From contig NZ_HF545617.1 in NCBI RefSeq assembly GCF_000723465.1, forward strand, positions 1 to 64,000: a stretch of 64,000 bases of DNA, given 5' to 3'. Of this stretch, positions 6,621 to 11,201 are shown in pieces; the stretch's first letter is position 1, and the number at the start of each line of letters is the position of its first letter. The DNA is from Ruminococcus bicirculans (ex Wegman et al. 2014). GTDB lineage: Bacteria > Bacillota > Clostridia > Oscillospirales > Ruminococcaceae. Below the pieces are notes generated by a model. The model was given only the letters and a program-made list of their open reading frames with translations. It made no database searches and was not told the origin of the DNA. The translations under genes and the position numbers were made by a program.

Positions 6621-6694
6621 AAATGAAAAAGCTTTGTTTTTTTGGATTAAAACGCTAATGCGTTGAAATAGTAATGTATGTTAGGAGAGTAAAA

Positions 6695-8113
6695 ATGAAA
6701 AAAACTAAGATCGTATGCACTATCGGACCTTCCACAGATGACGAAAACATTATGCGTGAGCTTATGAAAAACGGCATGGACGTTGCGAGATTCAATTTCT
6801 CACACTCTGACCACAGTGTTCATAAGGCTCGTTTTGAAACTGTATGCAAGCTAAGGGAAGAACTTGGCGTTAATATTGCAACTCTTCTTGATACAAAAGG
6901 ACCTGAGGTAAGACTTAAAAACTTTAAGGATCACAAGCCTGTTACTATCAAGGACGGCGATACATTCACACTTACCACAAGAGAAGTGGAGGGTGATGAA
7001 ACTATCTGCTCTATCACATTCCCACAGCTTCCAAAGGACGTTTCTGTAGGCACTAGAATACTTATTAATGACGGAAATATCGAGCTGAAAGCTACCAGAG
7101 TTGACAACACCGATATCGTCTGCGAAGTTATCCACGGCGGAGTTGTTTCCGACCACAAGGGTATCAACGTTCCTGACGTAAACCTTTCTATGCCTTATAT
7201 CTCTGACGCTGATATGGCTGACCTTGAATTTGGCGCAAAAATGGGATTTGACTATATCGCAGCTTCATTCGTAAGAACAGGCGCTGACGTTATTTATCTT
7301 AGAAAATTTACCCAGAGCCTTGGCTGGTTCAATCCTAGAATTATCGCTAAGATAGAAAACGCTCAGGGTGTTGCCAACATCGACGAGATCCTTGACGCTG
7401 CTGACGGAATAATGGTAGCAAGAGGAGATATGGGCGTTGAGATACCTTTCGAGCAGATACCTGCTATACAGAAAGAGCTTATCAGAAAAGCCTACAACGC
7501 AGGCAAGAACGTTATCACAGCAACTCAGATGCTGGAGTCTATGATAACAAACGCACGTCCTACAAGAGCCGAGATAACCGACGTTGCAAACGCTATATAT
7601 GACGGCTCGTCTGCTATAATGCTTTCAGGGGAAACTGCCGCAGGTAAATATCCTGTTGAGGCTGTCAAGACTATGAGCCTTATCGCAGAAACGACCGAAA
7701 AGGATATCGACTATATCTCACGTTTCAAGAAAAGAGCAGATGAGAGAAATTCATCTATCACTGACGCTATCTCACACGCTACTGTTACAACTGCCCATGA
7801 CCTTAATGCTGTAGCGATCCTGACAGTTACAAAGGGCGGAACAACAGCAAGAACGCTTTCAAAATTCCGTCCGAACTGTCCTATAATCGCACTTACAACT
7901 GACGATACAACATATCATCAGCTCAGCCTTTCATGGGGTATCAGAGCAGGCGTTATCGAAGAGAAAACAAACACTGACGAACTCATCAGACACGCTCTGG
8001 AGCGTTCTGTGGAGCTTGGCTATCTGAAGAAGGGCGACCTTGTCGTTATTACAGCAGGAGTACCGCTTGGAATGAGCGGAACGACAAATCTGCTCAAAGT
8101 CGAGAGAGCGTAG
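6695..8113 (+). CDS. pyk: Pyruvate kinase
   Basis: Pyruvate kinase converts PEP and ADP to pyruvate and ATP, the last glycolytic step, feeding the pyruvate formate-lyase locus just downstream. From the ATG at 6695 (AGGAGAG upstream) the protein is 472 aa. It begins MKKTKIVCTIGPSTDDE and contains the active-site block IIAKIENAQGVANIDEI and MVARGDMGVE. It ends soon after the allosteric C domain, without the extra PEP-utiliser domain found in Bacillus and Geobacillus pyruvate kinases. It appears to be monocistronic, followed by a repeat whose hairpin could terminate it. Confidence 0.97.
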   Translation: MKKTKIVCTIGPSTDDENIMRELMKNGMDVARFNFSHSDHSVHKARFETVCKLREELGVNIATLLDTKGPEVRLKNFKDHKPVTIKDGDTFTLTTREVEGDETICSITFPQLPKDVSVGTRILINDGNIELKATRVDNTDIVCEVIHGGVVSDHKGINVPDVNLSMPYISDADMADLEFGAKMGFDYIAASFVRTGADVIYLRKFTQSLGWFNPRIIAKIENAQGVANIDEILDAADGIMVARGDMGVEIPFEQIPAIQKELIRKAYNAGKNVITATQMLESMITNARPTRAEITDVANAIYDGSSAIMLSGETAAGKYPVEAVKTMSLIAETTEKDIDYISRFKKRADERNSSITDAISHATVTTAHDLNAVAILTVTKGGTTARTLSKFRPNCPIIALTTDDTTYHQLSLSWGIRAGVIEEKTNTDELIRHALERSVELGYLKKGDLVVITAGVPLGMSGTTNLLKVERA

Positions 8114-8493: not shown

Positions 8494-8578
8494 GAGCGGT
8501 AGTATTATTAATAGGTATGCAATACTGAATATTGAGGTAATATGTGCTGCCCGAAATCTTATGTCAGGAGAGTATAAA

Positions 8579-10657
8579 ATGGAAAGACAGTTTTATGACG
8601 AATGGGAAGGCTTTAAGCCCGGCAGATGGTCAAACACTTCTATCAATCTTCGTGATTTTATCCAGAAGAACTTCACACCATATGACGGTGACGACAGCTT
8701 CCTTACAGGCCCTACAGAAGCAACTACTAAGCTCTGGGAACAGGTAATGGAGCTTTCAAAGAAGGAGAGAGAAGCCGGCGGTGTTCTCGATATGGACACT
8801 AAGATCGTTTCTACTATCACCTCACACGGCCCTGGTTACCTTAACAAGGATCTTGAAAAGATCGTTGGTTTCCAGACTGACAAGCCTTTCAAGCGTTCTC
8901 TTCAGCCTTTCGGCGGTATCAGAATGGCTATGAATGCTTGCGAGCAGAACGGCTACACAGTTGATCCTGAAGTTGTAAAGATCTTTACTGAATATAGAAA
9001 AACTCACAATCAGGGCGTTTTTGACGCTTACACACCTGAGATGAAGCTTGCCAGACACGCTGCTATCATCACAGGTCTTCCAGACGCTTACGGCAGAGGA
9101 AGAATCATAGGCGACTACAGAAGAGTTGCTCTTTATGGTATAGACTATCTCGTTGAGGACAAGAAGGATCAGCTTGCTACTTCACTGGTAAGAATGACTT
9201 CTAAGAACATCAGACTCAGAGAAGAGCTTTCTGAGCAGATCAGAGCCCTTGGCGAACTCAAGAAGCTTGGCGAGATCTACGGCTACGATATCTCTCGTCC
9301 TGCTAAGAACGCTAAGGAAGCTATCCAGTGGCTGTACTTCGGCTACCTTGCTGCTGTTAAGGAGCAGAACGGTGCTGCTATGTCACTTGGCAGAACTTCT
9401 ACATTTATTGATATATACATCAAGAGAGATATGGACAGAGGTATCCTCACAGAGCAGGAGGCTCAGGAGCTTGTTGACCACTTCATCATGAAGCTCAGAC
9501 TTGTTAAGTTCGCTAGAACACCTGAGTATAACTCACTGTTCTCAGGCGACCCAACTTGGGTAACAGAGTCTATCGGCGGTGTTTCTATCGACGGCGTTCC
9601 AATGGTAACAAAGACTTCATTCAGATATCTCCACACACTTGAGAACCTTGGTCCTGCACCAGAGCCAAACATGACAGTTCTGTGGAGCACAAAGCTTCCT
9701 TTAAACTTCAAGAAGTTCTGTGCTAAGACTTCTATCAAGACTTCTGCTATCCAGTACGAGAACGACGACCTTATGAGAGTTACACACGGCGATGACTACG
9801 CTATCGCTTGCTGTGTATCTTCAATGAGGATCGGTAAGGAAATGCAGTTCTTCGGTGCAAGAGCTAACCTTGCTAAGTGCTTGCTTTATGCTATCAACGG
9901 CGGTGTTGACGAAAGACTTAAGATACAGGTTGGTCCTAAGTATCGTCCAGTTACAGGCGATTACCTCGATTATGATGATGTAATGGCTAAGTATGACGAT
10001 ATGATGGAGTGGCTGGCTGGTCTGTATGTAAATACACTGAACGTTATCCACTATATGCACGACAAGTATTCTTATGAGAGAGTTCAGATGGCTCTTCATG
10101 ACAGAGATGTTAAGAGATACTTCGCTACTGGTATCGCTGGTCTGTCAGTTGTTGCTGACTCACTTTCTGCTATCAAGTACGCTAAGGTAAAGTGCATCAG
10201 AGATGAGGACGGAATCGTTACAGATTACGAAGTTGAGGGCGATTTCCCTAAGTATGGCAACAACGACGAGAGAGTTGACAAGATCGCAGTTGACCTCGTT
10301 AGAACATTTATGGACAAGATCAGAAAGCACCACACATACAGAGATGGTGTTCCTACAATGTCTATCCTTACTATCACATCTAACGTTGTTTATGGTAAGA
10401 AGACTGGTTCTACACCTGACGGAAGAAAGATCGGTGTGCCTCTTGCTCCTGGTGCTAACCCAATGCACGGCAGAGATACTCACGGTGCATCTGCATCACT
10501 TTCTTCAGTTGCTAAGCTGCCATTCAGACACGCTCAGGACGGTATCTCAAACACATTCTCTATCATTCCTGACGCTCTTGGCAAGGACGACAAGGTATTC
10601 ATGGGCGACCTTGATATCGAAAGCATAGCTAAGGAGCTTAACGAAGATGGGGTTTAA
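8579..10657 (+). CDS. pflB: Pyruvate formate-lyase catalytic core lacking its glycyl-radical domain
   Basis: This is clearly formate acetyltransferase (pyruvate + CoA to formate + acetyl-CoA). The catalytic pair sits in YAIACCVSS (C411, C412; E. coli C418/C419), followed by the [10 protein letters not shown] block. From the ATG at 8579 (AGGAG upstream) it is 692 aa. The family is usually about 740-760 aa and ends with a hairpin carrying the radical Gly in RVSGYAV. Here the chain follows the family through [18 protein letters not shown], then stops after ELNEDGV, just before that domain. The missing domain is encoded separately at 10950-11201. The reading frame is otherwise intact and codon choice looks like that of a highly expressed gene, so this does not look like a decaying pseudogene. 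Confidence 0.93.
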
Positions 10658-10874
10658 TGTTAAAAAGGACGAGGACGAGGCTCAGGTAAACGAGCTTGTT
10701 GACGTCATTGACAGACTTATGATGGGCGGTCAGGGTCATCTTACGATAGACATTGACGAAACTGAAGAAGGTCTGAACGTTAAAACTTACAGCACTTCCG
10801 ATTGTGGCGGTGACGGCAAGACGGCTTGCTGTCAGCCTACAGAAGAGGACGCTGTTGACAGAGATGAAGATTAA
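10647..10874 (+). CDS. 75-aa partial look-alike of the glycyl-radical domain, no radical loop
   Basis: The start overlaps the pflB 3' end by 11 bases in the +1 frame, with AAGGAG ten bases upstream (10631-10636), so translation is probably coupled. Residues 13-37 ([20 protein letters not shown]..) resemble the first half of the glycyl-radical domain encoded next ([22 protein letters not shown]). The second half, which should carry RVSGYAV, is replaced by an acidic Cys-containing tail (C53, C61, C62). It cannot carry the radical. It may be a structural filler, a docking or protective partner for the split enzyme, or a remnant of the original C-terminus. Function is unknown. Confidence 0.75.
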
Positions 10875-10886
10875 CTCCCTATTTTA

Positions 10887-10909
10887 GAAAACGGCGGAGG
10901 TTCGTTTTC
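10887..10909 (+). other. Perfect RNA hairpin between the two small pfl genes
   Basis: GAAAACG, a 9-base loop, CGTTTTC. No T run follows directly. Its position suggests a processing or partial-termination site that sets the dose of the radical subunit relative to the core. Confidence 0.5.
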
Positions 10910-10949
10910 CACTTGTTTTCCATAAATACTAAGAAAGGAATGTAATACA

Positions 10950-11201
10950 ATGGCAAACTTTGAACCAACAGAGGCACAGATAGACAACCTTATCGGACTT
11001 CTTGACGGATATGCTGAAAAAGGCGGTCATCACCTTAATGTAAATGTACTTAACAGAGAAACTCTTCTGGACGCTCAGGCTCACCCTGAGAAGTATCCAC
11101 AGCTCACTATCAGAGTTTCAGGCTACGCTGTAAATTTTGTAAAACTTACTAAGGAGCAGCAGGACGACGTTATTTCAAGAACGTTCCACAAGAGCCTTTA
11201 A
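10950..11201 (+). CDS. Stand-alone glycyl-radical domain (GrcA-like radical subunit of PFL)
   Basis: This 83-aa protein is essentially the missing C-terminus of pyruvate formate-lyase. It reads ..[18 protein letters not shown].. then [14 protein letters not shown] with the radical Gly at position 58, and ends [17 protein letters not shown], as PFL proteins do. It has its own ribosome site (AAGGAA, nine bases before the ATG). E. coli GrcA (YfiD) is a similar free domain, but there it is a spare part for oxygen-damaged full-length PFL. Here the only PFL core in the window lacks the domain, so this subunit should be obligatory. PflA, encoded next, should install the radical. Confidence 0.92.

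Follow-up and report, generated by a model that had tools for sequence, protein, structure and literature searches.

A pyruvate formate-lyase encoded as a catalytic core and a separate glycyl-radical subunit in Ruminococcus bicirculans and other anaerobes

Is a pyruvate formate-lyase (PFL) gene that stops just short of its glycyl-radical domain a damaged gene, or is it one part of an enzyme that is normally made in pieces? This question is raised by a locus of Ruminococcus bicirculans in the window, the stretch of 64,000 nucleotides (contig NZ_HF545617.1, positions 1 to 64,000) that was analysed here. In the available sections of a specialist paper of October 2025 (PMC12590467), PFL is counted among the majority of glycyl radical enzymes that are homodimers of one polypeptide. 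The original prediction proposed that the core and a small radical subunit are encoded separately and that the two-part enzyme is the normal state. The features of the locus are listed in Table 1.

Table 1. Features of the split PFL locus, with coordinates in the window
Feature	Coordinates	Strand	Remarks
PFL catalytic core (PflB core), 692 aa	8579..10657	+	IACCVS adjacent active-site cysteines; end corresponds to about residue 681 of E. coli PFL
ORF2, 75 aa	10647..10874	+	radical-subunit-like first part, then cysteine-bearing tail (14 protein letters not shown), acidic end
Free glycyl-radical subunit, GrcA3 type, 83 aa	10950..11201	+	RVSGYAV, Gly58
PflA, radical-SAM PFL-activating enzyme, 247 aa	11458..12201	+	
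Ribosome-binding site of core, AGGAG	8566..8570	+	sequence reading
Ribosome-binding site of ORF2, AAGGAG, inside core gene	10631..10636	+	sequence reading
Ribosome-binding site of radical subunit, AAAGGA	10934..10939	+	sequence reading

Rereading of the core gene upheld the prediction that the PFL frame ends at 692 aa, short of the radical domain. The open frame runs from 8561 to 10657, and the ATG at 8579 is the start with a good ribosome site. The translation from 8561 (698 aa) scored 1135 bits against the formate C-acetyltransferase model TIGR01255 (equivalog cut-off 994). The match spans model positions 1–667 of 744, so the radical end is the only part missing from the core. The adjacent catalytic cysteines (C418/C419 of E. 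coli) are present, and the IACCVS motif was kept in 129 of the 135 compared cores, split and full-length together. The glycyl-radical motif is absent from the core polypeptide and sits in the separate gene. As predicted, this 83-aa gene has its own ribosome site and encodes the missing domain, covering TIGR01255 positions 663–744. Aligned with E. coli PFL from the PDB, the core extends up to residue 681, and the 83-aa protein covers residues 679–758. The latter belongs to GrcA3 (NCBIfam NF038360, 165.6 bits, cut-off 158), and all 41 aligned GrcA3 relatives matched this model at E up to 1e-25. PflA was above the TIGR02493 cut-off (304.2 bits vs 231.75). The enzyme resembles E. coli PflB (TIGR01255; PDB 1h16) in its core sequence, cysteine pair, RVSGYAV loop and PflA, but consists of two polypeptides, divided close to residue 680, and has a tail with cysteines or ORF2 in addition. 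The interval between the core and the radical gene, given as 290 bases in the original prediction, is mostly coding, because ORF2, which had been overlooked, lies there; its start overlaps the core stop by 11 bases.

The 83-aa protein could be a spare part similar to GrcA/YfiD (TIGR04365; PDB 6owr), which is likewise a small free PFL-type glycyl-radical domain. GrcA3 would then repair oxygen-cut PFL, and the window core would be a full-length PFL broken by mutation or assembly error. The NCBIfam family name, "autonomous glycyl radical cofactor GrcA3", agrees with such a role, as does the alignment of residues 24–83 with YfiD. Only these residues align; therefore the stretch TNLAGLMDGYF (E. coli 683–693), which the 83-aa protein contains and which is taken to be a helix, has no match in YfiD. 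The window protein is also shorter (83 aa vs 127), lacks the N-terminal half, and scored below the TIGR04365 cut-off of 170 (100.7 bits, model positions 66–126 of 126 only). Its gene differs further from that of GrcA/YfiD in adjoining a core with no radical domain of its own.

A full-length PFL elsewhere in the genome was searched for and none was found. The genome (2.97 Mb, 2 contigs) contains one PF02901 match, which is the split core. Its four PF01228 matches are the two halves of the split PFL and two anaerobic ribonucleotide reductases (NrdD). This genome (G000) has no intact PFL, with a radical domain of its own, that would need repair. Among 53 split genomes counted, some of them incomplete, 34 had no PF02901 match besides the split core: 20 of 24 in the bacterium's own family, 6 of 12 named genomes (picked from 76) and 8 of 17 others. 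Completeness of these 34 was at least 90% for 21 and lower (57–88%) for 7, and 6 had no figure. The 53 genomes hold 38 further PF02901 matches by row, and one of the 23 examined was a PFL, that of Claveliimonas bilis (1020 bits vs the window core). The 19 other fetched matches gave 34–130 bits against the window core, and L009, L011 and L051 gave E values of 4e-18 to 6e-24, both as expected of other glycyl radical enzymes. Claveliimonas bilis (L155) has the split and a full-length PFL in one species, which speaks for a spare part and would allow both forms to be compared within one cell. With an identical split point at 116 loci and low dN/dS in the tested pairs, the spare-part reading is considered very improbable. 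The name NF038360 speaks of an autonomous cofactor, while the present evidence points to a constitutive subunit.

The spread of the split was investigated by comparing 116 split-core loci with 19 full-length PFLs. The same split point was found at all 116, so the split is conserved in relatives, and the alternative of a sequencing frameshift in the window, raised with the original prediction, is contradicted. The free radical gene was present at 113 of these loci, and the contigs of the other three end 66–234 bases past the core. The own-family search gave PF02901 matches in 106 of 148 genomes. The own-family loci read, from part of these 106 genomes, comprised 24 split and 13 full-length PFLs plus other glycyl radical enzymes. 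Named genomes were scanned with the window core, and the best 80 loci comprised 76 split (73 with the free radical gene) and 4 full-length PFLs; this ratio is uninformative on frequency, since the 80 loci were kept for their closeness to a split core. Of 295 genomes from the order, 20 had GrcA3 above the cut-off, in every case in a frame of 81–152 aa; in the phylum sample, 2 of 398 genomes had it. Both samples were drawn evenly and include the window genome, and both counts are lower bounds because the cut-off is strict. All 17 further order-level GrcA3 loci had pflA and a free GrcA3 together with a core; the core of L150 is partial, and later counts were made without this locus.

According to their record titles, the loci with the split belong to Ruminococcus (including R. 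albus), Blautia, Lacrimispora, Catonella, Claveliimonas, Massilimicrobiota, Olsenella, Gastranaerophilales, spirochaetes and others. Many of the carriers are animal-gut anaerobes by the same titles. Single titles may be wrong, since many split loci are metagenome-assembled. A 4.6-kb contig titled Muribaculaceae (L075) groups with Melainabacteria and is probably wrongly binned. At L154 (G342), a free 79-aa GrcA-like frame adjoins a pflA-like frame at the contig end; it scored 120.5 bits, under the GrcA3 cut-off, and has HHINVNI instead of HHLNVNV.

Selection on the three genes was estimated from dN/dS in 13 close pairs chosen by the author. The ratio was 0.016–0.095 for the core (11 pairs with a value), 0–0.088 for GrcA3 (10 values) and 0.007–0.153 for ORF2, plus one pair at 0.45 (10 values). 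These values point to purifying selection; ORF2 mostly evolves faster than its neighbours, yet is constrained. For the window ORF2, the ratio was unobtainable in both pairs tried because synonymous change was saturated. Gene decay or sequencing error was ruled out by the recurrence at 116 loci together with the low dN/dS in the pairs tested.

Stop read-through or a frameshift at the end of the core could in principle also yield a fused PFL. The overlap of ORF2 with the core stop in the window is compatible with this, and GrcA3 is in frame with the core at 33 of 112 loci. This fraction hardly differs from the one third that chance alone would give, and the core stops are mixed (TAA 84, TGA 17, TAG 12; n = 113). 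Shine-Dalgarno-like letters precede the GrcA3 start in 101 of 112 loci, a raw count without a chance control; L043 was grouped in this survey with the loci without ORF2. A frameshift into ORF2 alone would give no active enzyme, since ORF2 lacks the glycyl loop. Read-through was dismissed on the chance-level frame, the mixed stops and the ribosome-site letters, and a fused product is regarded as extremely improbable.

The history of the split was studied with a tree of 81 cores selected by the author from 135 (668 columns, re-trimmed, mixture model). The tree came from a quick search without bootstraps and was midpoint-rooted, with an SH-aLRT of 78 at the outermost fork. The split/full label required two changes. 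The branch joining 69 split and 3 nested full-length rows had an SH-aLRT of 98, as did the branch of the three nested rows (L131, G401 and G376). With a root among the outer full-length rows, the two changes would be one split and one re-fusion. In the nested full-length proteins, the core is joined to the next part by 6–7 residues with no cysteine there. Full-length PFLs inside the split clade (L152, L153 and L131) are apparent re-fusions without the cysteine tail. An earlier tree (135 rows, LG+G4) required three label changes and placed two Anoxybacillus rows, one Bacillus coagulans record and G062, all four full-length, inside Gastranaerophilales with an SH-aLRT of 86. This tree was rougher, with some rows badly trimmed (431 residues) and a tool warning of meeting long branches. 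Both trees exclude the partial core of L150 and L006–L016, L028 and L051, which are loci for other glycyl radical enzymes.

The two-part PFL is a stable architecture of many anaerobes, given the recurrence at 116 loci, the tree with two label changes, and the sole copy in 34 of 53 genomes. The proposal that the two-part enzyme is the normal state agrees with the sole PF02901 match here, the recurrence of the split and an 81-core tree that fits a single origin. It is highly probable that the radical domain of PFL moved to its own gene, most simply once, in the ancestor of a large group of anaerobes, and that the parts assemble and work as PFL.

The two-part description is right for the core and the radical subunit but incomplete, because ORF2 was overlooked, and with it the cysteine tail that 113 of the 115 assessable split loci carry. 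The profile of 41 of the 57 ORF2s collected by script was compared with that of 41 of 113 GrcA3s by using hhalign. Similarity was significant (probability 95.7%, E 9.8e-9) over 30 columns only, as for a paralogue of the radical domain. The window ORF2 and window GrcA3 alone gave E 5e-4. Sixteen of the 41 ORF2s matched NF038360 at E up to 0.01, and one matched Pfam Gly_radical. ORF2 has no RVSGY glycyl loop and carries the cysteine tail in its stead. Across the 41 tails, one Cys and a Pro never vary, and at least 90% keep the second Cys. ORF2 had no named family of its own in Pfam or NCBIfam and no PDB match. ORF2 and the cysteine tail are the least known part of the split PFL.

The cysteines occur in two forms. 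At 58 of the 116 split loci, ORF2 is present and the core end has no cysteine; 57 of these were found by script and one (L043) by eye, as its motif is ACAVIN and not ACxxP. At 55 loci there is no ORF2, and at least two cysteines stand on the core's own end. Two split loci (L041 and L081) have neither, and the contig of L105 ends too soon for the tail to be assessed. No cysteine was found at the junction in any of the 19 full-length PFLs. ORF2 tails align with the in-line tails, with C766, C771, P774 and T775 invariant in 23 chosen rows; shorter in-line tails (GCC, CGC) occur in other lineages. L041 and L081 stand close together in the tree, and CPSCANIPN is present on the cores of the related L029 and L090. 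The tail is thus dispensable though tied to the split. A three-state label (full-length, with ORF2, without ORF2), which puts the tail-less L041 and L081 among the in-line tails, required 11 changes on the 81-core tree. The ORF2 and in-line forms have therefore replaced each other repeatedly.

E. coli work on truncated PFL offers a comparison. According to the parts of PMC8683613 available, truncated E. coli PFL with YfiD, once activated, had activity equal to the wild type. Binding of YfiD to the truncated core was undetectable in that account, and activation was 32-fold below that of the oxygen-cut form. The bare split may therefore need something more. The tail may occupy or guard the active-site opening left by the missing domain, so that the catalytic Cys pair stays reduced up to the docking of the radical subunit. 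This is a tentative reading; we lean towards it, but recruitment and redox sensing come close behind.

It is possible, if somewhat doubtful, that the tail or ORF2 chiefly recruits the radical subunit, as a counterpart of E. coli residues 696–733 and not as a redox guard. These residues are needed for YfiD binding and are called a recognition element by the authors, in the same partial text (PMC8683613). The first part of ORF2 also resembles the first 35 residues of the radical subunit (about E. coli 679–713). Against recruitment, 55 of the 115 assessable loci have the cysteine-bearing core end only. With no ORF2 at these loci, the cysteines, and not the ORF2 domain, are common to both forms.

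Binding of a metal, or oxygen sensing by a thiol switch that controls assembly with the radical subunit, is an unlikely role for the tail. Two conserved cysteines with variable spacing would suit it. Just two conserved cysteines were taken as too few for a single-chain cluster, and no iron-sulfur family match was reported for ORF2. To our knowledge, the small subunits of benzylsuccinate synthase and 4-hydroxyphenylacetate decarboxylase are not pieces of a radical domain. They are like ORF2 in being accessory to glycyl radical enzymes, one of them affecting the radical domain, but differ in binding [4Fe-4S] clusters, as stated in the available sections of PMC12590467; such clusters in accessory subunits also lend the metal-binding role some support. 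The guarding role, which we prefer, is one element of a wider picture: a single old fission giving a three-part enzyme, a swappable radical part, and a mimic of the radical domain, with a dithiol in place of the glycyl loop, that holds the vacated socket and keeps the cysteines reduced up to the arrival of another radical subunit. Taken as a whole, this picture is rather unlikely.

The working of the two-part enzyme can be proposed by analogy with ordinary PFL. The core with its Cys pair and the GrcA3-type subunit would assemble as obligate partners. With the small subunit docked on the core, PflA would place the radical on the subunit's Gly58. The radical would then move to the Cys pair, and pyruvate would be cleaved as in ordinary PFL. 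The radical-bearing part may act as an exchangeable cofactor-protein that is replaced after oxygen damage, and so may be the cheap subunit that the original prediction supposed. The natural split enzyme looks like the truncated-PFL/YfiD idea of E. coli made permanent. In vivo, an E. coli strain with PflB G734A and GrcA had an intermediate formate level, as given in the accessible portion of PMC12338860.

Another radical reaction, with formate no longer made from pyruvate, was also considered. In the part of PMC6776011 available, a study with R. albus 7, formate was listed for each of the three cultures as BDL, taken here to mean below detection. High flux is therefore not to be assumed. In R. 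albus KH2T6 the only PF02901 match is the split core, and the formate study used another strain, R. albus 7. The core scores above the formate C-acetyltransferase equivalog cut-off even without the radical end, the Cys pair is kept throughout most cores as noted above, and an activase of the PFL type is present. A different reaction is thus most unlikely.

The original prediction knew of no described obligate two-part PFL. None was found in the titles and abstract starts searched, which were those of open-licence PMC papers, nor in the available sections of PMC11528403, PMC12288474 and PMC13252398; PMC6378601 contained none of the PFL terms sought. The novelty is nevertheless incomplete, since NCBIfam has the GrcA3 model and two PDB chains exist. 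The chains 38la_A and 38lb_A ("Formate acetyltransferase") are PFL cores with no radical domain in the chain. Judged from the chain sequence, they look like free-standing cores, and their ends may be natural or engineered. The tail of 38lb_A holds ECDMC after LGK, and 38la_A ends in LGKED. No GrcA3-like chain of 38la or 38lb was found among the 34 PDB matches of the 83-aa protein. The split is possibly known to others, because NCBI names GrcA3 and these two entries look like free-standing cores. Accessory subunits of other glycyl radical enzymes may be unrecognised, according to the available sections of PMC12590467.

Many anaerobes have a two-part PFL together with one more conserved feature, for which no dedicated named family was found in the libraries searched. 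Under the names "formate C-acetyltransferase" and "autonomous glycyl radical cofactor" given to the families, one enzyme is cast as an enzyme and a repair part. The split PFL is a natural test bed for glycyl-radical loading, exchange and oxygen protection.

The surroundings of the genes were also read. A pyruvate kinase gene (6674–8113, same strand; TIGR01064, 570.6 bits, cut-off 306.4) lies directly upstream of the PFL genes. A weak terminator-like hairpin is located at 10887–10909, between ORF2 and the radical gene, and could set the expression of the radical subunit. The scanned region contained 5 terminator-like sites, compared with a shuffle mean of 2.7.
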